From Cryobacterium sp. GrIS_2_6 (GTDB lineage: Bacteria; Actinomycetota; Actinomycetes; Actinomycetales; Microbacteriaceae): a stretch of DNA of 64,000 nt. Within the stretch, counting starts at the first letter, position 1; every line of letters starts with the position of its first letter. Both the position numbers and the translations under genes were made by a program. Below the pieces are notes generated by a model. It was given only the letters and a program-made list of their open reading frames with translations, ran no database searches and had not been told where the DNA came from. Location of the stretch: NCBI RefSeq assembly GCF_035984545.1, contig NZ_JAXCHP010000001.1:4154001-4218000 (forward strand), written 5' to 3'. Shown here piece after piece: positions 2,272 through 54,169 of the stretch.

Positions 2272-2851
2272 TCATGCGCCTGGCAACATCGTGCTGACCA
2301 TGGTGCGAAAGTATGAGCTGTACGTCGTCGGTACGTAGCCGAGGTACGAGAGATCCACCAGAAGTGCGTGGTGGATCTTGTCCCGCTGGGCGGGCGAGAG
2401 GTTGTTCAGATAAGACGCAGTAGTTGTGTTGCTGCCCCCAGTCCTCCGTGGTGCCTTTGATTGGCCCACCGAACAGCGCCATCTCGTGGGTCGCGGCCGG
2501 GAACTGGCCAATATCGCCAGACAGGACGCTCAGCGTGGATTTCTTGTCGAGGAGCGGGAGTAATTGCTTGGCAACGGCGTGCCCGTAGAAGTCGGTGCTC
2601 ATCAGGTCGACATTGAAGAGGAGCGCCATCTCCTGTCGGTCGCCGGTCGTTGGAACGAGCACGGGACTCAAGGCATTGAGCATCACGCTTTTGGCCGGCG
2701 ATGCAGTGGGGACAGTCGAGTCTGTATGGTCGATGAACGACGCGGAGGGTAATGTGCGGCTCTTCCTCACCGTGCCCGTTGCTGTTGAGCTCAATGGTTG
2801 AGCGAACTCTGTATCCATCACCTGGCGTGGCGAGGTCTGGCCAAGATTCAC
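2272..2851 (-). pseudogene. Frameshifted hypothetical gene, convergent with the methyltransferase
   Basis: Reading the minus strand from ATG 2851 (or 2818) gives a protein-like stretch (FIDHTDSTVPTASPAKSVML, then NVDLMSTDFYGHAVAKQLLP and ALFGGPIKGTTEDWG). Near 2440 the plausible protein jumps to a second frame (NTTTASYLNNLSPAQRDKI ...) that ends at 2272. The switch falls at a run of five C on the plus strand (2435-2439), so a one-base slip there would break a protein of about 190 aa. The first frame stays open into the methyltransferase gene only as GC-rich shadow. I do not recognise the family. It is either a true pseudogene or a single-base sequence error. Confidence 0.5.
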
Positions 2852-3356: not shown

Positions 3357-3481
3357 AGACCCTAGGGAACCGGGCCATGGTGCGGTTCGAATCGTAGCGA
3401 ATCGTGTCCAGATCTTTCTCGCGCATTGTGGAGCGAGCACGTAAAGATGGAGTCGTGAGAGACTTCGAGATCCTGAGCGCT

Positions 3482-4105
3482 ATGGCGACGACTCGATTGA
3501 CCTACGACGGCCTTACATTGCAGGCGATTTCCGTCAATGGCATCGAAGAACTGGCCGGTGCTGCGTCAGGTGTAATCCATTCGGATGATTACATGCCATT
3601 CGGATTCCCGTGGTCTGCTGGCACGCCAGAACAACGCGTCCACCACTTGCGGAGTTGGTATGCGGCTCGACTTCGGGAAGCGAACCGCGAGAGATGGACA
3701 TTGATCTTCAGCGTGCGTCTTGATGGCAAAATCGTTGGCTCCACGAACCTCTACGCGGACCATTTCTCGGACCAGCGCACGGTGAGCACAGGGTCCTGGT
3801 TATTGCGTGGTGTGCACGGTCGTGGGATCGGTACCTCAATGAGGCTAATGCTTCTTGATCTTGCTTTCGGACACCTCGGTGCGGACCACGCGACGAGCGA
3901 GGCCTGGGAGGACAACTGGCCGAGTCGTCGAGTCAACGAGAAGTGTGGTTATCTCCTCTGCGGTCAGTATGAAAAGGCTCGTGGAGACGGTACGGCGACG
4001 ATGCTTCAGTACTGTTTGCCGCGCGGCCGTTGGGCAACGGAGAGCTCCACGGCCCGACAGGCCATCGTTGAGATTGATCCACGGCTTGCCGCTGCATTGC
4101 TCTAG
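3482..4105 (+). CDS. GNAT-family N-acetyltransferase
   Basis: This 207-aa protein begins at ATG 3482 by domain fit; an in-frame GTG at 3455, preceded by GATGGAG, is an alternative start. It has the RimJ/RimL-type layout: an early PFGFPW segment, the core strand IVGSTNLYADHF, the acetyl-CoA binding loop GVHGRGIGTSM (a Q/RxxGxG/A variant) and the late SRRVNEKCGY motif. It would transfer an acetyl group from acetyl-CoA to an amine of a small molecule, peptide or protein. It converges with the YcaO-fusion gene, the two 3' ends overlapping by 4 nt. In this setting it could acetylate the cluster product or protect the host; this is inference. Confidence 0.8.
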   Translation: MATTRLTYDGLTLQAISVNGIEELAGAASGVIHSDDYMPFGFPWSAGTPEQRVHHLRSWYAARLREANRERWTLIFSVRLDGKIVGSTNLYADHFSDQRTVSTGSWLLRGVHGRGIGTSMRLMLLDLAFGHLGADHATSEAWEDNWPSRRVNEKCGYLLCGQYEKARGDGTATMLQYCLPRGRWATESSTARQAIVEIDPRLAAALL

Positions 4106-6207
4106 GAGAAGAAGTGCGGCGCGCTGTTGGGGTCGCGGGTGGGCTTCCAGCGACCGCCGAACCAGATCGCGCGTAAGCCCGTGTTCAGCGCACGGACCAC
4201 GACCAGGTCGGAATCGGATCCTATGTCGAGATCTACGAAGCAGGTGTGCGCATAGAGCTGCTTGTATGATCGCTGGTCCACGTCCGTGCATAGGTTGCCG
4301 CTTGGCCCGTCAAAGAACCACCTGACACTCGAAATACTGCCGGGGCGCTGGTACGCGACATAGTGACGCACGTGCGCGCCCGTGCCGGTACTCATTGCTC
4401 GCCTGGCTGTGAGGTAGGTCGCATACGCGTCCAGAAAAGCTTTCTCGATCGCTGCGTTCGCTGAGGTGTCTGCCGCCAGTCCGAACCCGAGCAGTGCGCC
4501 TTGGGCGCTGATGGCCGCGCAGAAAAACACAGGAACAACGGCGTCCAGTTGCCCGAATGCGACCTCGATGCCAAGTCCCTCTAGTTTCGCCAACTTTGAT
4601 GCGAAGATGCCGAGCGGAGGCCTGACACGTGCCGGAGGACGTTGAGCAATCCAATGCCTCACGAACGCGTCGCGCTCGATCAACTCAAGCAATGCCGACC
4701 TACGGGCCTCACGCAGGGTGGTGTGCGCCGCGACGCCGTTCGAGGTGGCGGTGCCGCAGAGCCTCCTGCCCATGTCCAGGGAATTGACAGGGAAGTAGAT
4801 GAGTTCGACGGGAACTATTGTTGGCCCGTCTGCCTCGCTTTCGCCGATCCGCCACTGATAGGAGCTATCCGAAGCGTCAAATGGTGCGAACTCAGACGGC
4901 TCCGCTGTGAACCCCGGGAGATCGTCGGGGAACAGCACTCGGGTGTCGAAAACGCGGTACCGCTCCTGAAGGATGTCCGCGGACCCGTGCACGTCTATCT
5001 GCAGGCGCCCGCAGGTCTGCCGTTCGACGAACTCCGATCGTGCTTTCACTCCTGCCAGGCTTTCGGCCCAATGAACTCCCGTCGCATACGCGCCGGATGG
5101 AGTGCCATCTGCGGCTACTATCGGGATCTGTGCCACGATGATGCCCGAAGGCTCGTTCTCGCTGTTGCTTGGATCACCAAATGACGAGAACGATGAGAAT
5201 GCCAGCGATGGCCGGTTTGGTTCCTTGACGAGCTCTCTGCTGTCGTCCACAAGTCCAAACCCTACGACTGTCGCAGGCGCGAACGAACCAGAGTCTGTGA
5301 GCCGCGCAAGTGCGCCGTCGTTGAACGCGCCCCACTCCAGGGCACCCAAGTTTCGCTCCACGGCTGCAAGATGGATCATCTGAGCAACGTGGCCGGCTTC
5401 GAGAATGCTGTATCGGTAGCCCCGGTTCGCGTATTTGGCTGAGTGAATCCGTGGATCGAAAGATATGATCGCGATCGCGGCCGCACCATGAAGGAGACTT
5501 GCGCTGTCGAGAGCATTTTGAAGCTCGCCAGTGTCGAGCGCCGGGGCATCACGAACTCTCAGCATCGCTCCAATGGGATCCCAACAGTATGAGCGCCAGC
5601 CGGAGTCGGTATCGGAACGGTGAAACAAATCTATTCGGCATGAATAAAGGCCTCCAGCTGAGGGTGTGGCCCGGATAGCTGCACTGTATGCAACTGCAAG
5701 CACGTCCCGGACCTCAGCGAGTGGCAGAGGGCGTACGGAGAATGAACGGCAACTGCGCCGACGGCTGGCAAGCCTGAGCAGCGGCCCTGACACATCACCA
5801 GGTTCCGAATGACGGGGCCAGGTGTGCAATCGAGCATGCGACACGACATCGGTATGGTCCATCGCCGACCCGAAATGCTGAGGGTTCACGGTTGTCGCAT
5901 GGAATGGACGCCAGAGCTGCTCGGCTGCGGCGATGGACCCTGCCTCAATCAGATACGTGACCAGCTGACCGACTGCACCCCCAGTCTCATAGGTATCGCT
6001 GAGGTCGCCCCAGGTCGTGCGACCGTCCATGGCTTCGAGTAATGCAGCAATGCGTCGTTCAGGGTCGCGCAGAATGGTCTTACGCTCCGTGCCGTCCACG
6101 GTCGTCGTTCCTTCATCGGGGTTATGAAGGATGAGCGCTGAAAGACGTGGGCGCAAAGTGAGTGGGAGCCCCTCTTTCGAGGAACTCCCACCATCGGGGT
6201 CAATCAA
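4102..6207 (-). CDS. Three-domain RiPP synthetase: leader-binding domain + SagB-like dehydrogenase + YcaO cyclodehydratase
   Basis: This 701-aa protein starts at TTG 6207; a stop lies six codons upstream in frame, so no better start exists. Residues about 15-95 look like a RiPP recognition element (LRPRLSALILHN, then LEAMDGRTTWGDL). Residues about 140-335 match SagB/ThcOx FMN dehydrogenases (RRSCRSF, TPSAGGLYSCRI, RGYRYSILEAGHVAQMIHLA), which oxidise azolines to azoles. Residues about 365-690 match YcaO (KARSEFVERQ and SALLELIERDAFVRHW, ATP-binding Sx3ExxER type), which cyclises Cys/Ser/Thr using ATP. No ThiF/E1-like partner and no C-terminal PxPxP tail is present; it ends APHFFS. The precursor-like ORF stops 5 nt upstream, so the two are probably cotranslated. 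The domains are recognised from motifs; the reaction on this precursor is inferred. Confidence 0.87.
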   Translation of the reverse strand: MIDPDGGSSSKEGLPLTLRPRLSALILHNPDEGTTTVDGTERKTILRDPERRIAALLEAMDGRTTWGDLSDTYETGGAVGQLVTYLIEAGSIAAAEQLWRPFHATTVNPQHFGSAMDHTDVVSHARLHTWPRHSEPGDVSGPLLRLASRRRSCRSFSVRPLPLAEVRDVLAVAYSAAIRATPSAGGLYSCRIDLFHRSDTDSGWRSYCWDPIGAMLRVRDAPALDTGELQNALDSASLLHGAAAIAIISFDPRIHSAKYANRGYRYSILEAGHVAQMIHLAAVERNLGALEWGAFNDGALARLTDSGSFAPATVVGFGLVDDSRELVKEPNRPSLAFSSFSSFGDPSNSENEPSGIIVAQIPIVAADGTPSGAYATGVHWAESLAGVKARSEFVERQTCGRLQIDVHGSADILQERYRVFDTRVLFPDDLPGFTAEPSEFAPFDASDSSYQWRIGESEADGPTIVPVELIYFPVNSLDMGRRLCGTATSNGVAAHTTLREARRSALLELIERDAFVRHWIAQRPPARVRPPLGIFASKLAKLEGLGIEVAFGQLDAVVPVFFCAAISAQGALLGFGLAADTSANAAIEKAFLDAYATYLTARRAMSTGTGAHVRHYVAYQRPGSISSVRWFFDGPSGNLCTDVDQRSYKQLYAHTCFVDLDIGSDSDLVVVRALNTGLRAIWFGGRWKPTRDPNSAPHFFS

Positions 6208-6212
6208 CGCGC

Positions 6213-6305
6213 TCAGTTGGGGTCAGAGCACTGGCAATCGAGAATCAGGCTGTGCGACTCAGCGCTAGTCGAGTGTGACATGTCGCTGAGGATGAGTTCC
6301 TTCAC
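6213..6305 (-). CDS. Putative RiPP precursor peptide (30 aa)
   Basis: The ORF runs from GTG 6305 to TGA 6213 and is too short for most gene callers. It has a strong Shine-Dalgarno (AAAGGAGA, 6311-6318) six bases from the start and ends 5 nt before the YcaO-fusion start. The peptide has an acidic/hydrophobic start (MKELILSD), then a Ser/Thr/His-rich stretch (MSHSTSAESHS) and a tail LILDCQCSDPN with two Cys. Seven Ser, one Thr and two Cys give ten potential heterocyclisation sites. Cysteine is confined to the last seven residues, as in a core following a short leader. No GG or AxA cleavage site is visible. Function is inferred from position, ribosome site and composition. Confidence 0.68.
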   Translation of the reverse strand: MKELILSDMSHSTSAESHSLILDCQCSDPN

Positions 6306-6310
6306 AATGG

Positions 6311-6318
6311 TCTCCTTT
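6311..6318 (-). promoter_or_regulatory. Shine-Dalgarno of the precursor ORF
   Basis: On the minus strand AAAGGAGA precedes GTG 6305, with six bases between GGAG and the start. It is far stronger than the site before the following TTG-started synthetase gene. This fits high expression of a small peptide and lower, coupled translation of the enzyme. Confidence 0.65.
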
Positions 6319-6380: not shown

Positions 6381-7046
6381 CTAACCCCGCCCAATGTGGA
6401 GACCAAGAAAGCACTCACGCGCATCCAAACAAACCTCTGCGCTTCCACGCTGTTCGACAATCTCCCAAGCTCGGGCGTACGCCGGATGAGCGGCATGGCG
6501 GTCACGGTCCGCGTCAAGCACCGCGCGCAACTCTGGGTGGAGTGCCACATATTCATCCAGGAGTGCGAAGACCGGTACGTGGGTGAGTGTGACGAACGAT
6601 AATTCCGTACCCCAACGGAATCGCCACGCGTCGCTCAGGGAGCCGCTCCGTGAGCGGCCGATTTCATACGCATTATTTAGCGTGAGTAGTCGGTGCGCGA
6701 GTTCATGGAGCACGGTCATCTGCATCAGCAGCGGACTTCGCGTCGGATTCAGGATGCCGGGTTCGCTGATCGAACCGCCCACCCAGGGGCAGACGTAGAA
6801 GATGTGCGTTGCCTCCGATCCGTGCACCCCGAGGCAACGTTCGAAAAATCGCACGAACGCGACGCCGTCCCCTGCGGCGAAGGTATCGAGACTCGTGGCA
6901 ACGCGGCGAAGTTCACTGTCATTTGGATAACGGAGACCGTACTTTTTCGTCCAAGCGTCTTCGTGTTCACGCGGGAGCGACGTGAACAGGACGCTCGAGA
7001 AGCGAACGCTGACTAGTGCACCGGGTTGTGTCCGTCGTAGAGGCAT
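6381..7046 (-). CDS. HExxH zinc metallopeptidase-like protein of the RiPP cluster
   Basis: This 221-aa protein starts at ATG 7046. Residues about 134-142 read TVLHELAHRL, the HExxH zinc motif of gluzincin/metzincin-type peptidases, inside a helix. A later acidic helix (ALLDEYVALHPEL, about 180-192) could supply the third ligand. No signal peptide or membrane segment is seen, so it would act in the cytoplasm. It ends 75 nt upstream of the precursor ORF on the same strand, so peptidase, precursor and synthetase likely form one transcript. A role in removing the leader peptide is a reasonable guess. It could instead be an unrelated hypothetical; no named family is recognised beyond the motif. 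Confidence 0.68.
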   Translation of the reverse strand: MPLRRTQPGALVSVRFSSVLFTSLPREHEDAWTKKYGLRYPNDSELRRVATSLDTFAAGDGVAFVRFFERCLGVHGSEATHIFYVCPWVGGSISEPGILNPTRSPLLMQMTVLHELAHRLLTLNNAYEIGRSRSGSLSDAWRFRWGTELSFVTLTHVPVFALLDEYVALHPELRAVLDADRDRHAAHPAYARAWEIVEQRGSAEVCLDARECFLGLHIGRG

Positions 7047-7979: not shown

Positions 7980-8206
7980 TAAGGGCAGATTGCAGCGTAA
8001 GGTTCGAGGGAGCTCCCGGCTGCAAGTGAAACCGACTCGCGGGCCGGCCTGTGCAGAGGCCTCGTGTCGCAACTCGCCGGTATCGTTTTGATCAGGCTTG
8101 AGGAATATTAACGCGCACACATCTGTGCGGAGGAGATCACGCATTACATGACGTACCCAACAACGAACGAACGAGCACTGGCGAGCCTTTCTTCAAGGCC
8201 GGTGGG

Positions 8207-9781
8207 GTGGTAGTGGCTCCTACTACGAGGGAAGCCCAGCGCGCACAACTGCACAAGACGATCTGGCGCATCGCGAACGATCTGCGGGGCAGCGTTGATG
8301 GCTGGGACTTCAAGACGTATGTGCTGGGGATTCTCTTCTACCGCTTTATCAGCGAGAACCTCGCCGCATATTTGAACGGCCTCGAGCGAAAGGCTGGTGC
8401 GCCAGACTTCAGCTACTCGAAGCTTGCCGACTCTGAGGCAGAGTTCGGGCGGAAGGTCACAGTTGAGGAGAAGGGTTTCTATATCCTCCCGAGCGAGCTC
8501 TTCGAGAACGTGCGGAAGCGTGCGCCGCGTGATGAGAATCTCAACGAGACCCTTGAGAGGGCCTTCAAGAACATCGAGGGTTCCGCAGTCGGTGCGGACA
8601 GCGAAGACGACATTAAGGGTCTCTTCGACGACTTGGACGTGAACTCCGCCAAACTCGGGAATACCGTCGCCAAGCGCAACGAGAAGCTGGTCAAGCTGCT
8701 TGATGCGATCGGCGACCTGAACCTGGGTGACTTCGCAACCCATGAGATCGATGCCTTCGGCGACACTTACGAATACCTCATGCAGATGTATGCATCTGAA
8801 GCCGGCAAGTCTGGCGGTGAGTATTACACCCCCCAGGAAGTGTCTGAACTCCTGGCGCGCATCACTGTCGTCGGCAAGACCGAAGTCAACAAGGTTTATG
8901 ACCCAGCAGTAGGGTCTGGGTCTCTTCTGTTGAAATTCCAGAAGGTCCTCGGCCCGGGAAAGGTCCGGCAGGGCTTTTATGGTCAAGAGATCAATCTGAC
9001 GACCTATAATCTCGCCAGGATCAACATGTTCCTGCACGACGTCCCCTACGAGCAGTTCAACCTTGCTCACGGCGACACTCTGATCGATCCGCAGCACTGG
9101 GACGATGAGCCTTTCGAGGCCATCGTCTCCAACCCGCCGTACTCGATCAATTGGGAAGGTGACGCGAATCCGCTGCTGATTAATGATCCGCGTTTCGCCC
9201 CCGCGGGAGTGCTCGCTCCCAAGTCGAAGGCGGACCTCGCCTTCACCATGCACATCTTGTCATGGCTCGCCGTCAACGGTACAGCGGCGATTGTCGAGTT
9301 CCCCGGTGTCATGTACAGGAGCGGGGCTGAGCGGAAGATCCGCAAGTACCTCATCGATAACAACTACGTCGAGGCTGTCATCCAACTCCCACCGGACCTC
9401 TTCTTCGGCACCTCGATCGCGACCTGCATCCTCGTGCTAAAGAAGTCGAAGACGGACAACTCGGTTCTTTTCATCGATGCCTCCGCCGAGTTCGTGCGTG
9501 GTGGCAACAAGAACAAGCTGCTTGCTGCGAACCGGAATCGAATCCTTGACGCCTTCACTGCGCGGGAGGACATCGCCCACTTCTCGAAGCTCGTGCAGAA
9601 CAGCGAAATCGCCGGGCGCGAATACCTGATCTCCGTCTCGTCTTATGTCGAAGCAGAAGACACGCGCGTCGCCGTCGACATAACAGGGCTCAACATCGAG
9701 ATCGCCCAAATCGTCACGCGCCAGTCCGAGCTTCGCACTGCGATCGACTCGATCGTCGCGGACTTGGAGGGCGCATCGTGA
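8207..9781 (+). CDS. hsdM: Type I restriction-modification methyltransferase subunit HsdM
   Basis: This 524-aa protein methylates adenine in the recognition site as part of the M2S complex and protects host DNA. It has the HsdM N-terminal domain (WRIANDLRGSVDGWDFK, GILFYRFISENL), the SAM-binding motif I (VYDPAVGSGSLLL, about 233-245) and the catalytic NPPY motif (SNPPYSINWEGDAN, about 308). The start is GTG 8207 or GTG 8213; GGTGGGG just upstream may be the ribosome site. It is the first gene of a coupled operon: its TGA overlaps the GTG of hsdS by 4 nt. The form is close to the EcoR124I (type IC) group. Confidence 0.95.
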   Translation: MVVAPTTREAQRAQLHKTIWRIANDLRGSVDGWDFKTYVLGILFYRFISENLAAYLNGLERKAGAPDFSYSKLADSEAEFGRKVTVEEKGFYILPSELFENVRKRAPRDENLNETLERAFKNIEGSAVGADSEDDIKGLFDDLDVNSAKLGNTVAKRNEKLVKLLDAIGDLNLGDFATHEIDAFGDTYEYLMQMYASEAGKSGGEYYTPQEVSELLARITVVGKTEVNKVYDPAVGSGSLLLKFQKVLGPGKVRQGFYGQEINLTTYNLARINMFLHDVPYEQFNLAHGDTLIDPQHWDDEPFEAIVSNPPYSINWEGDANPLLINDPRFAPAGVLAPKSKADLAFTMHILSWLAVNGTAAIVEFPGVMYRSGAERKIRKYLIDNNYVEAVIQLPPDLFFGTSIATCILVLKKSKTDNSVLFIDASAEFVRGGNKNKLLAANRNRILDAFTAREDIAHFSKLVQNSEIAGREYLISVSSYVEAEDTRVAVDITGLNIEIAQIVTRQSELRTAIDSIVADLEGAS

Positions 9782-10962
9782 GTCGGATTGATGACTTGAT
9801 CGGAGAGCTCGCTCCGAAGGGGGTTCGATACAAGACGCTCGGAGACGTCGGCGATTTCATTCGTGGCAACGGTTTGCAGAAGAGCGACCTCACTTCAGAG
9901 GGTGCTCCTGCGATTCACTATGGACAGATCCACACCTACTACGGCAGGTGGACCAAGGCTACGAAGTCGTTTGTCAGGCCTGAACTGGCCGCGAAGCTTC
10001 GCCGGGCGAAGCCTGGTGATCTCGTAATCGCGACAACTAGCGAAGACGATGCAGCTGTGGCGAAAGCGACGGCTTGGATCGGCGATGACGAGGTCGCGGT
10101 AAGCGGTGATGCGTATATCTACCGCCATTCGGCCGACCCGAAGTACGTCTCCTACTTCTTCCAGTCCGAGCAATTTCAGGAGCAGAAGAGACGCCACATC
10201 ACGGGAACGAAGGTTCGTCGTATCTCGGGTGACTCGCTCGCGAAGATCCGAATCCCCGTGCCACCTCTCGATGTACAGCGCGAAATCGTGAGAATCTTGG
10301 ATCACTTTACGGAGCTGGAAGCGGAGCTGGAAGCGGAGCTGGAAGCGGAGCTGGAAGCGCGGCACCGTCAGTATGTCTTCTACCGGGATTCGCTACTCGC
10401 TATTGCCGATTCGAGTACTTTCTGGTCGCTGCTTGGTGATGTGGCGAGCGTGTGTGTGGGCCAAGCGCCACCGCTGGGAGTAATTACGGAGGTCGGTCCA
10501 TTCGCTTTCATAAATGCGGGGACGACCGAATCCGGCCGCGCGTCGGAGGCAAACACTGCCGGTGACGCAGTAACAATTCCATCGCGAGGCCAAGGAGGGG
10601 TTGGAATTGTTGGCTATCAGACTGAGTCCTTCTGGTGTGGTCCGCTTTGTTACCGAATCACCAGTTCCACTGACGGGCTGAGGACCCGCTACCTGTATTT
10701 CTATCTCAAGTCGATTCAGCCTTCGATCCGCGGCCTTCAGCAGGCCGGCGGAACGCCTGCGCTTAACAAGAAGGAGCTCGTACTCGTAAGGGTGCCAATA
10801 CCTCGGATCGAAGAACAGGACCGGATCGTTTCGCTTCTCGACAAGTTCGATGCTCTGGTGAATGATCTCAGCGTCGGCCTTCCGGCTGAGCTCGCTGCTC
10901 GTCGCAAGCAGTACGAGTACTACCGTGATCGCTTGCTGACGTTCGAGGAGGCTACAGCGTGA
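9778..10962 (+). CDS. hsdS: Type I restriction-modification specificity subunit HsdS
   Basis: This 394-aa protein chooses the DNA target for the methylase and nuclease. Two target-recognition domains are visible. The first spans about 1-170 and ends in a conserved helix (PPLDVQREIVRILDHF). The second spans about 210-355 and ends in PIPRIEEQDRIVSLLDKF. The central spacer contains ELEA repeated four times in DNA-perfect copies before the conserved RHRQYVFYRDSLL; the C-terminal equivalent is RRKQYEYYRDRLL. The start GTG 9778 overlaps the hsdM stop, and the hsdR GTG overlaps its stop. The bipartite target is not predictable by eye. Confidence 0.95.
   Translation: MSRIDDLIGELAPKGVRYKTLGDVGDFIRGNGLQKSDLTSEGAPAIHYGQIHTYYGRWTKATKSFVRPELAAKLRRAKPGDLVIATTSEDDAAVAKATAWIGDDEVAVSGDAYIYRHSADPKYVSYFFQSEQFQEQKRRHITGTKVRRISGDSLAKIRIPVPPLDVQREIVRILDHFTELEAELEAELEAELEARHRQYVFYRDSLLAIADSSTFWSLLGDVASVCVGQAPPLGVITEVGPFAFINAGTTESGRASEANTAGDAVTIPSRGQGGVGIVGYQTESFWCGPLCYRITSSTDGLRTRYLYFYLKSIQPSIRGLQQAGGTPALNKKELVLVRVPIPRIEEQDRIVSLLDKFDALVNDLSVGLPAELAARRKQYEYYRDRLLTFEEATA
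10311..10358 (+). repeat. Four perfect 12-bp repeats in the hsdS central spacer
   Basis: The unit GGAGCTGGAAGC occurs four times head to tail and encodes the repeating tetrapeptide ELEA. In EcoR124I/EcoDXXI-type HsdS the number of such four-residue repeats sets the length of the unspecified gap between the two half-sites. Perfect repeats expand and contract by slippage without breaking the frame, so the specificity could vary between cells. Confidence 0.9.
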
Positions 10963-13900
10963 CCGACACGATCCGGACCCACTTTGAGCCGATCGTGGTG
11001 TCGGCCGAGAGTACGGTCGTCGCTGAGTTCATTCCTGACACCGCTGCCGAGGCGGCCTATCAGTCCGAAGCGGGCCTTGAGCGCGAGTTCATCGAGCTCC
11101 TGCAGTCTCAGGCCTATGAGTACCTCCCGATCACGAGTGAGTCCCAGCTCGTTGCGAATCTCCGTACCCAGCTCGAGGCGCTGAACTCGACTAAGTTTTC
11201 CGACCCCGAGTGGGAAAATTTCTTCACTGACCGGATCGCTGGAGCAAACGACACGATCGAGGCGAAGACGATCCGTATTCAGGAGGACCACGTCCAGCTC
11301 CTGAAGCGCGATGACGGCTCGACGAAGAATGTCATGCTGATCGACAAGGCGAATGTCCATAACAACCGCCTGCAGGTAGTTAACCAGTACGAAATCGGCC
11401 AGGGCGAGGGCGGTGCCAGGCGCTCAAACCGTTACGACGTCACGGTCCTCGTCAACGGCCTTCCGTTTGTGCATGTCGAGTTGAAGCGTCGCGGGGTTGA
11501 CATCCGTGAAGCGTTCAACCAAATCGACCGCTACCAGCGCGACAGCTTCTGGGCTGGTTCCGGGCTCTTCGAGTACGTCCAACTTTTTGTCATCAGCAAC
11601 GGCACATTGACGAAGTACTACAGCAACACCACCCGCCGACAACATCTGACTGAGTTGTCATCAAGCTCGGCGGCTAGGGTGCGCGCGAAGAAGACGTCCA
11701 ACTCATTCGAGTTCAGTTCGTGGTGGGCGGACGCCACCAACAGGCCGATCCAGGACCTCACAGGCTTCACACGGACATTCTTCGCCAAGCACACTCTTCT
11801 TAACATTCTGACGAAGTATTGCGTCCTTACCGCTGATCGAATGCTGTTGGTCATGCGCCCGTATCAGATCGTCGCGACCGAGCGAATTCTGCAGAAGATC
11901 GACGTCTCGACCAACTACAAGCAGCTCGGCACTGTCGGCGCGGGCGGCTACGTGTGGCACACCACCGGCTCGGGTAAGACGTTGACCTCATTCAAGACCG
12001 CGCAACTTGCATCACGCTTGCCATCAGTCGATAAGGTCCTCTTCGTCGTCGACCGCAAAGACCTCGACTACCAGACAATGCGCGAATACGACCGGTTCGA
12101 GAAGGGGGCAGCGAACTCAAACACCTCGACTGCGGTACTCAAGAAGCAGCTTGAGAACCCAAACGCACACATCATCATCACGACGATTCAGAAGCTGGCG
12201 ACGTTCATCGGCGCGCCGGCAAGCAAGGGCCACGCCATCTTCGGTGGGCACGTCGTGATCATTTTCGACGAGTGTCATCGCTCGCAGTTCGGCGACATGC
12301 ACGAATCAATCACAAAGGCTTTCAAACGGTACAACTTGTTCGGTTTTACAGGCACGCCGATCTTCGCCGAGAACGCCGGGAGTGGTGGTAACCCAGCGCT
12401 GCGCACGACCGAGCAGGCATTTGGCGAGAAGCTGCACACCTACACAATCGTCGATGCGATCAGCGACAAGAACGTGTTGCCGTTCCGAATCGACTACGTC
12501 AACACCATCAAGCTGCCGGAAGGCATCACTGACAAGCAGGTGTCTGCGATCGACACCGAGCGGGCGCTGCTTGCGGTCGAGCGCATCCGTCAGGTCGCCG
12601 CCTACACGCTTGAACACTTTGATCAGAAGACCAAGCGCAGCAATGGCTACCAATTCTCTGGAGTCACCAACATTGCGGATGTGGCTGCGGGCAGAAACCG
12701 TGTTGATGAAGTCAAGGTGTCACGGCGAGTTAATGGCTTCAATGCGATCTTCGCGACCGCCTCGATCGACGCGGCCAAGCGCTACTACAACCAGTTTGCC
12801 ATCCAGCAGCGGGAGCTTCCTTCCGACCGCCGCCTGAAGATCGGCCTCATCTTCTCTTACGCAGCCAACGAAGCCGAAGGCGAGGGTTACCTCGACGAGG
12901 AAGGTTTCGAGACAAGCTCGCTCGACGCATCGTCGCGCGACTTCCTTGAGGACGCGATCCAGGACTACAACGACTTGTTCGGGACGAGCTACGACACCTC
13001 CGACGACAAGTTCCAGAACTACTACAAGGACCTCTCGCTGCGGCTGAAGAACCGCCAGCTTGACCTCGTCATTGTTGTGAACATGTTCCTTACCGGTTTT
13101 GACGCGACGACCCTCAACACTCTCTTCGTGGACAAGAATCTGCGCTCCCATGGGCTCATCCAGGCATTCTCGCGAACGAACCGAATCTTGAACTCGGTCA
13201 AGACATACGGCAATATCGTCAGTTTTCGGGACCTCGAGCGGGAGACGAACGACGCCATCGCGCTGTTCGGCAATAAGAACGCCCGCGGTGTCGTCCTTCT
13301 CAAGCCGTACGGCGACTACTACGGCGAATACGCGAGCAAGGTGCAGGATCTACTTGATTTCTACCCACTAGGTCAGCCGATTATCGGAGAGGCTGCGCAA
13401 AAGGAATTCATCGCACTCTTCGGCTCGATCCTGCGACTCCGGAATATTCTGACGTCCTTCGACGACTTCGTGGGAAACGAGATTCTGACCGAGCGCCAGG
13501 GTCAGGACTATCGCAGCATCTACCTTGACCTCTACGCCGAATTTCGCAAGGAAAAAGACTCCGAGAAGGAGTCGATCAACGACGACGTCGTTTTCGAGAT
13601 TGAACTCATCAAACAGGTTGAAATCAACGTCGACTACATCCTTATGCTCGTCCAGAAGTACCGTGACCAGCGCGGCGACGGAGACGACAAAGAGATTCGA
13701 GCGGAGATCACACGCGCCATCGACGCATCGCCTTCCCTCCGCAACAAGAAAGACCTCATCGAGGCCTTTGTCGATCGTGTGTCTGCGACCGGCGCCATCG
13801 ACGAGGAGTGGACCACTTACGTGGCAGCGCGGCGAGCAGCTGAGCTCGACAAGATCATCGAAGAAGAAGATCTTCGCGCTGACGAAACGCGCGAGTACGT

Positions 13901-14081
13901 TGAGCGTGCATTTCGCGATGGTGCGATCCAAACCAGCGGCACTGCAATTACACGTGTCCTTCCTCCGGCCTCCCGCTTTTCGCCCGAGGGTGGTCATGGC
14001 GAAACGAAGCAGCGCGTCTTGACGAAGCTCGGGGAGTTCTTCGAGAGATTCTTCGGGCTGAGCTCGAGCGGAGGACAGTAA
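10959..14081 (+). CDS. hsdR: Type I restriction endonuclease/translocase subunit HsdR
   Basis: This 1040-aa protein, almost the same length as EcoR124I HsdR, pulls and cuts unmethylated DNA. An N-terminal PD-(D/E)xK nuclease is visible (RYDVTVLVNGLPFVHVELKR, about 155-172). The SF2 helicase motor follows: Walker A HTTGSGKTLTSFK (about 332), DECHRSQFG (motif II, about 430) and FTGTPIF (motif III). A C-terminal helical domain binds HsdM. The GTG start overlaps the hsdS stop by 4 nt, and the TAA shares one base with the ATG of the next gene. All motifs look intact, so the system is probably active. Confidence 0.95.
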   Translation: MTDTIRTHFEPIVVSAESTVVAEFIPDTAAEAAYQSEAGLEREFIELLQSQAYEYLPITSESQLVANLRTQLEALNSTKFSDPEWENFFTDRIAGANDTIEAKTIRIQEDHVQLLKRDDGSTKNVMLIDKANVHNNRLQVVNQYEIGQGEGGARRSNRYDVTVLVNGLPFVHVELKRRGVDIREAFNQIDRYQRDSFWAGSGLFEYVQLFVISNGTLTKYYSNTTRRQHLTELSSSSAARVRAKKTSNSFEFSSWWADATNRPIQDLTGFTRTFFAKHTLLNILTKYCVLTADRMLLVMRPYQIVATERILQKIDVSTNYKQLGTVGAGGYVWHTTGSGKTLTSFKTAQLASRLPSVDKVLFVVDRKDLDYQTMREYDRFEKGAANSNTSTAVLKKQLENPNAHIIITTIQKLATFIGAPASKGHAIFGGHVVIIFDECHRSQFGDMHESITKAFKRYNLFGFTGTPIFAENAGSGGNPALRTTEQAFGEKLHTYTIVDAISDKNVLPFRIDYVNTIKLPEGITDKQVSAIDTERALLAVERIRQVAAYTLEHFDQKTKRSNGYQFSGVTNIADVAAGRNRVDEVKVSRRVNGFNAIFATASIDAAKRYYNQFAIQQRELPSDRRLKIGLIFSYAANEAEGEGYLDEEGFETSSLDASSRDFLEDAIQDYNDLFGTSYDTSDDKFQNYYKDLSLRLKNRQLDLVIVVNMFLTGFDATTLNTLFVDKNLRSHGLIQAFSRTNRILNSVKTYGNIVSFRDLERETNDAIALFGNKNARGVVLLKPYGDYYGEYASKVQDLLDFYPLGQPIIGEAAQKEFIALFGSILRLRNILTSFDDFVGNEILTERQGQDYRSIYLDLYAEFRKEKDSEKESINDDVVFEIELIKQVEINVDYILMLVQKYRDQRGDGDDKEIRAEITRAIDASPSLRNKKDLIEAFVDRVSATGAIDEEWTTYVAARRAAELDKIIEEEDLRADETREYVERAFRDGAIQTSGTAITRVLPPASRFSPEGGHGETKQRVLTKLGEFFERFFGLSSSGGQ

Positions 14082-16513
14082 TGCTCCGGCGGCTCGAGTG
14101 GATCAAGAACTGCGGAATCTTCGAGGACTACCGCTGGGAAACCGCGCTGCCAGAACTCGCACGGATCAACGTCATCTACGGGCCGAACGGTTCGGGGAAG
14201 ACATCGCTGGCCGGAGCACTCGATGGACTTCGAAATGCTGAGGACGGTGAAGGCTACAAACGCCTGTCGATCGCGCTTGACGACAGTGGCACCCAACGGG
14301 TCACTGCTGGGCAAGACGACGCACTCTTCGGTCGGGTCCACGTCTTCAGCGAGCACTACGTGGGTAGGAGCCACAAGTTCACGCCCGCCGAGGTCGAGAT
14401 GGACGCGGTTCTGACGATTGGCGAGAAGTCAGTGGACACGGAGGCAAGGCTTGAGGCACTCCGCGAGACCGTTAAGACGAAGACCGCAGACCGAGACGCT
14501 GCTGCTGCCTCGGAGCGCAGGGCAAAGCAGGCTGTCGACGCCGCATATGGGCAAGTGTCTCAACAAGTGGTCGACGCCGCGAGCCGCGCTGGTGGGCGGT
14601 GGCACTCGCGCAGCAACTTCAGCGCCGGGATGGTGCGGACTGCATTCGCCAACTCTCATGCATCATGGGCCGCGCTCTCCGAACAAGACCTGCGGGAGAG
14701 GATCAGCGTGATCAACTCCGATAAGTCAGACCCTCAGCCGGACGATCAGCTGGTCGTGCCGGCACTGGAGGATCTAGCTGCGCGCTTGTCGACGGCTTTG
14801 AGCCGTACCCCGTCAACGATCATTCTCGACACTCTGGCGGCTCACCCAGAGGCCACATCCTGGGTCGACGAAGGTCGCCACCTGCACGAGGGCATCGATG
14901 TCTGTCTCTTCTGCGGCTCACCGCTTACAGCCGAGCGCCGGGCTCTCATCGACCAGCACTTCTCCGACGAGGTCGAGCGACTTCAGGCCGGCCTCGGTGG
15001 GATCATCCGGGAGCTGACGGAGATGGAGACGGGCACGAGCACAGCGCTCACCAGCATCCCGAGCAGGGGACTGTTCTTCGAGGATCTGCGCTCGCGCTAT
15101 GACGAGGCTGCGAAGTCACTACGGGATGAACTTACGGCGTTGCGAACCTGGGCGTCCGCAGCTCGAGTGCGCGCCGAGGCCAAGGCGGCGAATGTACTTG
15201 CCACTGTGGAGGCCGGTGTCGATGAGTCGCCAACGGTTGCCGGATCAGAACTGATAAAACTCCGACAGGAGCACAACGACCGGGTCTCGAAGCACGGCTC
15301 GCTTGTGCAAGCTGCGGCAAAGGTCGTCGAACTTCACTACTTGAAGCGGGCCGAATCTGGCGTGAAGACAAACGCCGACCTTGCGGGCACCGATCATGTG
15401 AAGGTGGAGAAACTCAACGGTGAGCTGGTGGAACACGCCGCGGAGATCACGACGCTTGAGGCCGTTGATGGCGACCCGATGCCCAGCGCGAAGGTTCTCA
15501 CGGAGGAAGTCGCCCGACTGCTTGGGCGCAGAGAGCTGAAGTTCGAAGCGGTCGATGGCCGCTATCGCGTAACGCGCGATGGGCAGCCTGCAATCGGGCT
15601 CAGTATGGGTGAGCGGACTGCGATCACACTGATCCACTTTCTCGAATCGGTTGCGAAATTCGATGAATCCAAGGGCAAGGCGATAGTCGTGATCGATGAC
15701 CCGGTCTCGAGCCTGGACAGTGACATCTTCATGGGCATCTCGACATACATCTGGGCCGAGTCGGTTTCGAAAGACCATATCGCGCAGGTCGTTCTCCTCA
15801 CGCACAACTTCGAGCTGTTCCGGCAGTGGGATGTCCAGATCGAAGGGCTGCCCGGGCGTGGCGGAGCGAATTCCAAGTACCCGTCGTCGCTCTATGAGAT
15901 CCGGCCGACCCACGTCTTGGTCGCGGGCAAGTCGAAGCGACGGCCGCGACTCGTGGCATGGCCGTCGACGCCCGAAGTGCGCAAGAAGATGCGCTCGACC
16001 TATCAGCACGCATTCATGACCGTCGCGCAGGCGCTGCAGCATCTCCAGGCCGACGACTCGATGGAGCACAAGCTTGACGCGCAGCTGCTCTTTCCGAACG
16101 TGGTGCGACGCATGCTCGAAACGTTCCTCGCGTTCAAACATCCCGAATGGGTCGGCAACTTCACTGAGGCGATGCGGAAGTCGAAAGACCTCCTTGAAGC
16201 GGGCGGATACAAGGGGGATGCGGACGCCCTGCGGCTGAGGCTTACGCGCTATTCGCATGCGCACTCGCACAGTGAGACACCGTCAACTGACATCACGGTC
16301 AGCCCACACGAAGTAGCAACGGCGATCGGCGCTGCGTTCGAGTTCATGAACTGCCTCGACCCGGCTCACTTCACGGGTCTCTGCGAAGTTGTCGGGATTG
16401 ACCCGAGCGCACTTCTTCCGCCAGTCCCGGCTGAGGACGCCGAAGAGAAGGCCGTCGAGCTGGTGCTCGAGGAGGCGGAGCTGCTCGCGGCTGGCTTCAT
16501 AGGTCTCACTTGA
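14081..16513 (+). CDS. rloC: RloC-like anticodon nuclease (ABC ATPase with zinc hook)
   Basis: This 810-aa protein has Walker A GPNGSGKTS (about 32-40), an interrupted coiled-coil middle with a CxxC zinc-hook (CLFCGSPL, about 275), an ABC signature LSMGER (about 505), Walker B AIVVIDDPVSSLDS (about 530) and an H-loop LTHNFELF. The C-terminal domain has RRMLE (R-x3-E, about 673) and YSHAHSH (about 725), which fit the Arg-Glu-His triad of PrrC/RloC nucleases. RloC cuts a tRNA anticodon when the linked type I restriction system is inhibited or DNA is damaged, as a second line of phage defence. It shares one base with the hsdR stop, so it is cotranslated. An AAA_13 protein without nuclease activity is the main alternative. 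Confidence 0.8.
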   Translation: MLRRLEWIKNCGIFEDYRWETALPELARINVIYGPNGSGKTSLAGALDGLRNAEDGEGYKRLSIALDDSGTQRVTAGQDDALFGRVHVFSEHYVGRSHKFTPAEVEMDAVLTIGEKSVDTEARLEALRETVKTKTADRDAAAASERRAKQAVDAAYGQVSQQVVDAASRAGGRWHSRSNFSAGMVRTAFANSHASWAALSEQDLRERISVINSDKSDPQPDDQLVVPALEDLAARLSTALSRTPSTIILDTLAAHPEATSWVDEGRHLHEGIDVCLFCGSPLTAERRALIDQHFSDEVERLQAGLGGIIRELTEMETGTSTALTSIPSRGLFFEDLRSRYDEAAKSLRDELTALRTWASAARVRAEAKAANVLATVEAGVDESPTVAGSELIKLRQEHNDRVSKHGSLVQAAAKVVELHYLKRAESGVKTNADLAGTDHVKVEKLNGELVEHAAEITTLEAVDGDPMPSAKVLTEEVARLLGRRELKFEAVDGRYRVTRDGQPAIGLSMGERTAITLIHFLESVAKFDESKGKAIVVIDDPVSSLDSDIFMGISTYIWAESVSKDHIAQVVLLTHNFELFRQWDVQIEGLPGRGGANSKYPSSLYEIRPTHVLVAGKSKRRPRLVAWPSTPEVRKKMRSTYQHAFMTVAQALQHLQADDSMEHKLDAQLLFPNVVRRMLETFLAFKHPEWVGNFTEAMRKSKDLLEAGGYKGDADALRLRLTRYSHAHSHSETPSTDITVSPHEVATAIGAAFEFMNCLDPAHFTGLCEVVGIDPSALLPPVPAEDAEEKAVELVLEEAELLAAGFIGLT

Positions 16514-53002: not shown

Positions 53003-54169
53003 TCAGGCGGAAATGGTCTCGGAAGTTACGGGCTGGTAGCCGCAGCTCGGGTCCTCAGCGAGCGGATCGCCGGTGAGCGCGTAAGCGTGAGAGCGGGAGC
53101 CTCCGCAGACCGTGCGGAACTCGCAGCGCCCGCAGCGGCCGCCAAAGGTATCCGGGGTGCGCAACTCCTGGAGTAGCTGCGCCTCCCGGTAGATTTCGGG
53201 GAACGGCTGCTCGCGAACCGATCCGACGGACACTGGTAGGAATCCGCTCGGGTAGACCGCGCCGACGTGGTCGATGAAGGCGAAGCCGCGTCCGGAGTTG
53301 ACGTCGATCGGTGCACGCGGCTTCCGCCGCCGGGGTTCGTCGCCGGTCAGTAGCTTGTCGGTAGCGCTGCGCAGCTGTGCGCGCAGCGGACCAACCGGGA
53401 AGGCGGCATCGAGGTCGGTCACGCCTGCGCGTTGGATGGCAACGCGTCGGTAATGCGGCGCCTCAGTCGTCTTGATCGCGACGAGCTCGGAAACATCATG
53501 CAGCCAGTGCAAAACCTCTTCGGCTTCGTCCGAGGTCAGGGCATTCAGGAGTTTTCCGCGTCCCGTGGGGACGAGAAAGAAGACGCTCCAGAGAGTTGTC
53601 CCGAGGTCGAGGACCGTCCTGAGGATCGCCGGCAGTTCGTGCACTGTGTCGCGGGTCACGGTTGTGTTGATCTGCAGGCGATACCCAACCTCGCGGACCA
53701 TTCGCGCGGCGATCATCGTATCGTCGAAGACGCCGGTGACACCGCGGAAGGTGTCATGAGTGGCCGCGCAGGCACCGTCGAGCGAGAGAGATACCGCCTT
53801 CGCACCTGCCTCGTGCAGCTCAACGAGGACCTCGCGGGTGAGCCTCGGGGTGACCGAGGGGGAGAGGGCCATGCTCAACCCCAGGCTGGTGCCGTGTGCG
53901 ACCAGCTCGGGCAGGTCAGGGCGTTCGAATGGATCGCCGCCGGTGAGGACGACAAGCGGGCGGGGCGTGCCGAACGACGCTAGATCGTCCAGGAGCTTTC
54001 TACCCTGGTCTGTGGTGAGTTCGAACGGATTGCGGGTGCGGATGGCATCCGCCCTGCAGTGGGTGCAGACGAGCTGGCAGGCTCGCGGGACCTCCCAGAT
54101 CACGATGAAAGGCCGCTCGCCGGCATCATGGCGTAGGTGTCGGATGGCACGCACGGGGGTCTCGCTCAT
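53003..54169 (-). CDS. Radical SAM/SPASM-domain protein (TIGR04053-like)
   Basis: This 388-aa protein starts at ATG 54169. The radical SAM cluster is CQLVCTHC (CxxxCxxC, about 31-38), followed by VVLTGGDPFERPDL. The C-terminal SPASM region holds extra cysteines (GGRCGRCEFRTVCGGSRSHA, then DPSCGY) for auxiliary Fe-S clusters. This layout is that of the NirJ/AhbD-type and TIGR04053 proteins found with nitrogen-oxide and haem genes. It likely modifies a tetrapyrrole or a peptide. It is divergent from an HTH regulator across 75 bp. The exact reaction cannot be read from sequence. Confidence 0.85.
   Translation of the reverse strand: MSETPVRAIRHLRHDAGERPFIVIWEVPRACQLVCTHCRADAIRTRNPFELTTDQGRKLLDDLASFGTPRPLVVLTGGDPFERPDLPELVAHGTSLGLSMALSPSVTPRLTREVLVELHEAGAKAVSLSLDGACAATHDTFRGVTGVFDDTMIAARMVREVGYRLQINTTVTRDTVHELPAILRTVLDLGTTLWSVFFLVPTGRGKLLNALTSDEAEEVLHWLHDVSELVAIKTTEAPHYRRVAIQRAGVTDLDAAFPVGPLRAQLRSATDKLLTGDEPRRRKPRAPIDVNSGRGFAFIDHVGAVYPSGFLPVSVGSVREQPFPEIYREAQLLQELRTPDTFGGRCGRCEFRTVCGGSRSHAYALTGDPLAEDPSCGYQPVTSETISA

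Follow-up and report, generated by a model that had tools for sequence, protein, structure and literature searches.

The systems closest to the locus described here are the azole-forming machineries of microcin B17, trifolitoxin and the cyanobactins. The locus lies in 64,000 nucleotides of Cryobacterium sp. GrIS_2_6 (contig NZ_JAXCHP010000001.1, positions 4,154,001 to 4,218,000; hereafter the window) and consists of a 30-codon open reading frame (ORF) next to a gene for a SagB-YcaO fusion synthetase. The McbBCD enzymes of microcin B17 include a SagB-type dehydrogenase and a YcaO cyclodehydratase, as the window synthetase does. In the window, however, a single chain carries dehydrogenase and YcaO, nothing like the E1-type McbB was found, and the candidate precursor has 30 residues and no Gly, while the core of McbA is rich in Gly, Ser and Cys. 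In trifolitoxin (TfxA, TfxB, TfxC) the precursor is short, its C-terminal core is small, and the SagB-like and YcaO proteins are separate; these separate proteins and the greater length of the precursor distinguish it from the window locus. LynD carries an E1-like domain, at whose place the window protein has SagB. The placement of domains relative to LynD/TruD and ThcOx is different, since the root-mean-square deviations are large, and the precursors also differ. According to excerpts of PMC4603692, the YcaO proteins of trifolitoxin and bottromycin are believed to be active without a C protein, and in this respect trifolitoxin resembles the window.

We propose that the 30-residue ORF probably encodes the precursor of a compact cassette for an azol(in)e-type ribosomally synthesised and post-translationally modified peptide (RiPP), a cassette without a detected E1-like partner. 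This reading is supported by a strong Shine-Dalgarno sequence (SD) and the placement of the ORF, by the SagB and YcaO domains of the synthetase, by the pairing with an HExxH gene and by precursor-type peptides at relatives. The tiny ORF is probably a precursor because distant relatives of the cassette carry clear precursor peptides. The features of the cassette are:

6213..6305, minus strand: 30-residue ORF, candidate precursor peptide (GTG start, TGA stop)
6312..6318, minus strand: Shine-Dalgarno sequence AAAGGAG, ending 6 nt ahead of the GTG
4102..6207, minus strand: 701-residue synthetase with a TTG start
5923..6153, minus strand: RiPP recognition element (RRE)-like domain, synthetase residues 19-95, a predicted fold
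5233..5790, minus strand: SagB-type flavin mononucleotide (FMN) dehydrogenase domain, residues 140-325 (PF00881, E 1e-15)
4105..5097, minus strand: YcaO domain, residues 371-701 (PF02624, E 1.2e-28)
6381..7046, minus strand: 221-residue HExxH (HELAH) protein, putative leader peptidase from motif conservation

A sequence-only reading of this DNA had pointed to the ORF by its GTG start, its SD and a stop close to the synthetase, and in these respects it was right. On the minus strand the ORF runs from 6305 to 6213 and is translated as MKELILSDMSHSTSAESHSLILDCQCSDPN. Its SD has an anti-SD duplex energy of -8.0 kcal/mol, and 5 nt (GCGCG) separate its TGA from the synthetase TTG at 6207. An SD this strong or stronger is found at 2.0% of the 842 ORF starts of the window (ORFs of at least 24 residues) and at 15% of the 33 long-ORF starts. 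Within the first 16.5 kb, three other starts among 83 candidates have an equal or stronger SD; one belongs to ORF 2564-2752 (+), which has two Cys in its second half and lies on the opposite strand, past the acetyltransferase gene described below. When the criteria were loosened and 20 kb on the left of the window were scanned with it, many more candidates appeared, mostly inside genes. The peptide contains 7 Ser, 1 Thr, 2 Cys and no Gly among its 30 residues, and both Cys are within the last seven. Rfam gave no match within the window, and a promoter and terminator scan gave signals no commoner than in shuffles.

Both catalytic domains of the synthetase are well above the Pfam cut-offs (58.7 against 23.5 bits for PF00881, 100.8 against 25.7 for PF02624). 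In azole clusters YcaO is the D protein, and many of them also have an FMN dehydrogenase as B protein. A profile search found McbC for the SagB domain (E 1.1e-20); McbC and McbD were recovered for the synthetase both by profile and by fold, and its predicted fold is also like that of LynD. Lys258-Tyr259 of the SagB domain is invariant across 24 sequences. In the model, the RRE-like domain has the element order expected of an RRE, three strands followed by three helices, and the structural alignments to LynD, ThcOx and BmdC start at synthetase residues 17-21. Judged from the alignment, this part is conserved about as well as the catalytic parts: in the four close homologues that retain it, identity is 78, 69, 82 and 48%, compared with 75, 73, 84 and 52% for the SagB part.

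Pfam finds no E1-type domain (C protein) in the fusion, an element that is not universal among azole clusters. In the genome, TIGR03882 has a single match of 33.3 bits, under its cut-off of 36.9, and 11 of 14 control genomes show similar matches (the search did not extend to TIGR03603 and the F-protein family). The synthetase reaches neither the TIGR03604 (SagD) cut-off, at 92 against 219.25 bits, nor that of TIGR03605 (SagB), at 51.6 against 78.4 bits. Two distant relatives, L007 and L051, pass the SagB cut-off (115.4 and 84.3 bits) and miss the SagD cut-off (174.7 and 142.1 bits). The core of the peptide also falls slightly outside the usual composition: with the core assumed to be residues 10-30, Gly, Cys, Ser and Thr make up 9/21 (43%), narrowly below the 45-65% given for azole precursor cores in excerpts of Cox et al. 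2015 (PMC4603692). The synthetase works in the manner of the azole-peptide synthetases for microcin B17 and cyanobactins. With YcaO and dehydrogenase present, no E1-type partner found, scores under the curated cut-offs, a core just under the range and the precedent of trifolitoxin and bottromycin, the locus is therefore a variation on azole-peptide systems.

We infer that the 30-residue ORF is translated and that its product is the substrate, and we infer likewise where the rings form. If the predicted fold is right, the RRE-like domain of the fusion would bind the N-terminal part of the peptide. The YcaO domain would cyclodehydrate Cys, perhaps also Ser and Thr, most likely in the C-terminal DCQCS, and the SagB domain with FMN would oxidise the azolines to azoles. 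The neighbouring HExxH protein may cut off the leader. Protease, precursor and synthetase are presumably on one transcript, and the precursor ORF may also couple translation to the synthetase TTG.

Close homologues of the fusion, P0002-P0009, are metagenome proteins with 49-82% identity in the alignment. Among sampled genomes of the genus (57), the family (398, E <= 1e-20) and the phylum (396, E <= 1e-30), no close homologue was found outside the own genome. At the level of the order (396, E <= 1e-10), 23 other genomes match over part of the query, mostly with separate SagB or YcaO reading frames. None of these samples, which overlap and each count the own genome, contains a full-length relative outside it. 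Viral contigs and phages gave no synthetase match. The search of genome contigs returned one locus (L007, an Uhrbacteria metagenome-assembled genome), and the plasmid search returned three records; the one examined, from Rothia nasimurium (L037), encodes a 714-residue fusion of the RRE-SagB-YcaO type. At E <= 1e-40, ten of 379 Patescibacteria genomes have a match, which includes YcaO in seven of them and is limited to SagB in three. The seven YcaO loci have either a single-chain synthetase (L007, L051, L053), a division into RRE-SagB and YcaO (L055, L056) or broken or split frames (L054 and L052, the latter on a 4.5-kb contig).

An initial look upstream of the Patescibacteria synthetases gave no precursor, and wider scans then found three. 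These and the Rothia peptides are:

L053, 4540-4686, plus strand: candidate precursor peptide, Gly/Ser/Cys-rich, SD -7.1
L055, 7387-7539, minus strand: candidate precursor peptide, Gly/Ser/Cys-rich, SD -8.0
L056, 2857-3036, minus strand: candidate precursor peptide, Gly/Ser/Cys-rich, SD -12.0
L037 (Rothia nasimurium plasmid), 5269-5385 and 5435-5581, plus strand: tandem peptides upstream of the fusion

Gly/Ser/Cys-rich peptides of precursor type are present at three of the seven Patescibacteria YcaO loci. At L055 and L056 they sit between the YcaO and DUF2268 genes, which is the slot of the 30-residue ORF in the window, and at L053 the peptide is just past the protease gene on the opposite strand. 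The two Rothia peptides, missing from the gene list of the plasmid table, have a common leader, differing Cys-bearing cores and modest SDs (-4.6 and -4.3). The cores from L053, L055, L056 and Rothia are Gly/Ser/Cys-rich like that of McbA, and several pairs among the five peptides are similar to each other, mostly in their Gly-rich cores. Only four peptides came out of a strict composition scan that covered 20 sequences (357,801 bases), and all four lie at YcaO loci (4/8 of the relatives' YcaO loci, 0/11 loci without YcaO); Rothia 5269-5385 was not among them. A Cys-rich ORF at L007, 8806-8991, has a low codon score (-0.22) and was not taken as a candidate. The Patescibacteria loci suggest that these bacteria, whose genomes are small, encode microcin-like azole peptides.

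In the window, the HExxH gene lies upstream of the 30-residue ORF on the same strand. H114, E115 and H118 are invariant across six aligned HExxH proteins. For the window protein Pfam gave nothing, even with E values of 1 allowed, PF10026 (DUF2268) included, and the database holds three relatives besides itself (P0026-P0028). A model built from six sequences has a predicted local distance difference test score (pLDDT) of 74.8, and a fold search with it gave no useful PDB match. At L007, a 214-residue ORF directly upstream of the fusion is a homologue (27% over 160 residues, pairwise E 2e-5) and shares the motif HPxYxRAWEIV.

An HExxH gene is found within 300 nt of the synthetase at all seven Patescibacteria YcaO loci. 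At L007 this gene is the relative of the window protein, and two DUF2268 genes are further out; these two and one more ORF with an HExxH motif are all within a few kb, at L007:8067-8834 (-), 14954-15607 (-) and 12426-13157 (+). The L053 HExxH gene aligns with that of the window at 16% and is missed by the window protein's profile. DUF2268 proteins, predicted to be Zn-dependent proteases, are encoded near the synthetase in six of the seven Patescibacteria genomes with a YcaO part, but the window protein is related instead to P0026-P0028 and the L007 ORF. All seven DUF2268 copies of the ten matching genomes are no more than about 3 kb away from the synthetase, and the three SagB-only genomes, taken as a control, contain none. 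Across Patescibacteria, DUF2268 is above its cut-off in 12 of 239 genomes, three of which carry the synthetase (G1320, a fragment at a contig end, was excluded, and G1419 is under the cut-off). Eight of the nine DUF2268 loci in genomes without the synthetase were examined, with no synthetase match in the 16 kb covered; the link of DUF2268 to YcaO is thus not universal. As the pairing of the synthetase with HExxH genes recurs, in most cases with DUF2268, it suggests a role for this uncharacterised family. PADLOC matched neither the synthetase nor the window HExxH protein. Neither an RRE-SagB-YcaO fusion nor a link between DUF2268 and RiPPs was found in the literature covered, including excerpts of PMC4603692, PMC7470986, PMC12710340 and PMC11055893, which does not imply absence from print.

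The proposal that the ORF is a RiPP precursor, already made by the sequence-only reading, thus stands in part. It is favoured by the SagB/YcaO neighbour and by azole-type peptides at the Rothia plasmid and three of the seven Patescibacteria loci; the peptide has no Gly-rich core, unlike those of the relatives. That reading was silent on the strand, the RRE-like domain, the HExxH neighbour and the absence of an E1-type partner. Several further observations weigh against a precursor. A database search with the peptide returned no relative, not even its own entry, which does fit the earlier description of the ORF as unannotated (the annotation of the contig record itself was outside that search). 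Without Gly, the peptide fails the strict composition scan, which gives 0 hits in the 64-kb window, and it is unlike all five peptides of the relatives, as 75.6% to 99.1% of 1000 shuffles score as high. Composition scans gave no precursor-type ORF at L007, L051, L052 and L054, four of the seven loci. Finally, PF05402 does not match the RRE-like domain, and the RRE is perhaps vestigial, as proposed for other dehydrogenase-fused RREs in excerpts of PMC7470986.

A rival explanation, unlikely but deserving weight, is that the ORF is translated purely for coupling, with ribosomes restarting at the TTG and the true precursor elsewhere in the genome. It has this weight because the synthetase is nearly without an SD of its own (duplex energy -1.5 at the TTG), against the strong SD of the ORF. 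The dissimilarity to the relatives' precursors also fits, and in some azole clusters the precursor gene is known to lie far away, according to excerpts of PMC4603692. Other small Cys-bearing ORFs with a good SD are available, such as ORF 2564-2752 and, some 11 kb away from where the synthetase starts, a 68-residue ORF (L072:19189-19395). However, the same slot at L055 and L056 holds Gly/Ser/Cys-rich peptides, the strict scan offers no such peptide in the 64-kb window, and coupling has no need of two Cys in the last seven residues or of a Cys-x-Cys-Ser end.

That the ORF is a chance frame, not translated to any purpose, and that the synthetase starts at a later GTG (codon 37), we consider improbable. 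The gap that holds the ORF is 173 nt long, and in 42% of its 5000 dinucleotide shuffles an ORF of at least 25 residues is present. With an SD of -8.0 or lower in addition the share falls to 0.8%, and with a stop within 10 nt of the synthetase as well to 0.16%; these thresholds were set post hoc, once the ORF was known. The codon score of 0.03 is mildly coding-like: it lies in the lower fifth of 554 gene windows (0.19 +/- 0.19, 20% below it), and of 290 small ORFs (-0.30 +/- 0.24) 9% score above it. The database entry for the window synthetase (P0001) does use the later GTG, 36 codons downstream of the TTG, and has 665 residues. However, the 36 residues ahead of that GTG align with P0002, P0003 and P0007, the RRE-like fold is predicted to begin within them, P0003 likewise has 701 residues with a co-aligned start, and the SD is among the top 2.0% of starts. 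Least probable of all is a precursor modified by another chemistry, such as thioamide or amidine formation, given the same-chain SagB with its Lys-Tyr motif, which points to azoline oxidation (excerpts of PMC11055893), the Gly, Ser and Cys of the relatives' peptides, and the PHPFP and PHPLA ends of relatives P0014 and P0019.

If the 30-residue ORF is the precursor of an azol(in)e cassette, it can be speculated that the RRE-SagB-YcaO synthetase without an E1-like partner, the HExxH leader peptidase and a precursor of 30 residues whose leader has fewer than about 20 form a self-contained system, and that Patescibacteria make azole peptides with a minimal kit. We hold this wider proposal tentatively, at slightly under even chances; it is suggested for Patescibacteria because related synthetase-protease-precursor units occur there with Gly/Ser/Cys-rich, microcin-like peptides. 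In that case one chain, acting on a very short precursor, would recognise the leader, form the rings and oxidise them. Such a system would offer a simple way to test how YcaO enzymes act when no E1-like partner is present, and peptide engineering would gain a compact tool.

One further gene adjoins the cassette:

3404..4105, plus strand: GNAT-type acetyltransferase gene (PF13302, E 4.4e-14)

It is convergent with the synthetase, and their ends overlap by 4 nt. Whether it is part of the cassette is uncertain; its product may modify or detoxify the peptide product.

The 68-residue ORF just to the left of the window, L072:19189-19395, has a good SD and ends in CSPTCHG. Within L072:15610-19395 it comes after histone-deacetylase-like, TauD-like and histidyl-tRNA-synthetase genes, and at 102-2266 of the window a 398-residue gene without a Pfam match and a methyltransferase gene follow. 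Together these are possibly another peptide or natural-product cluster. Further left, a large serine recombinase and a type IV coupling-protein-like gene (L072:3902-5776 and 8138-10294, both minus strand) make this part of the region look like an integrated mobile element. To the right of the cassette, 8207-16513 holds type I restriction-modification genes and then an 810-residue ATPase-like protein, for which PADLOC gives a match to its candidate family PDC-S06. At 53003-54169 (-), a radical SAM/SPASM protein scores 517.7 bits with TIGR04053 (cut-off 395), close to genes that we judged by eye to be denitrification genes.
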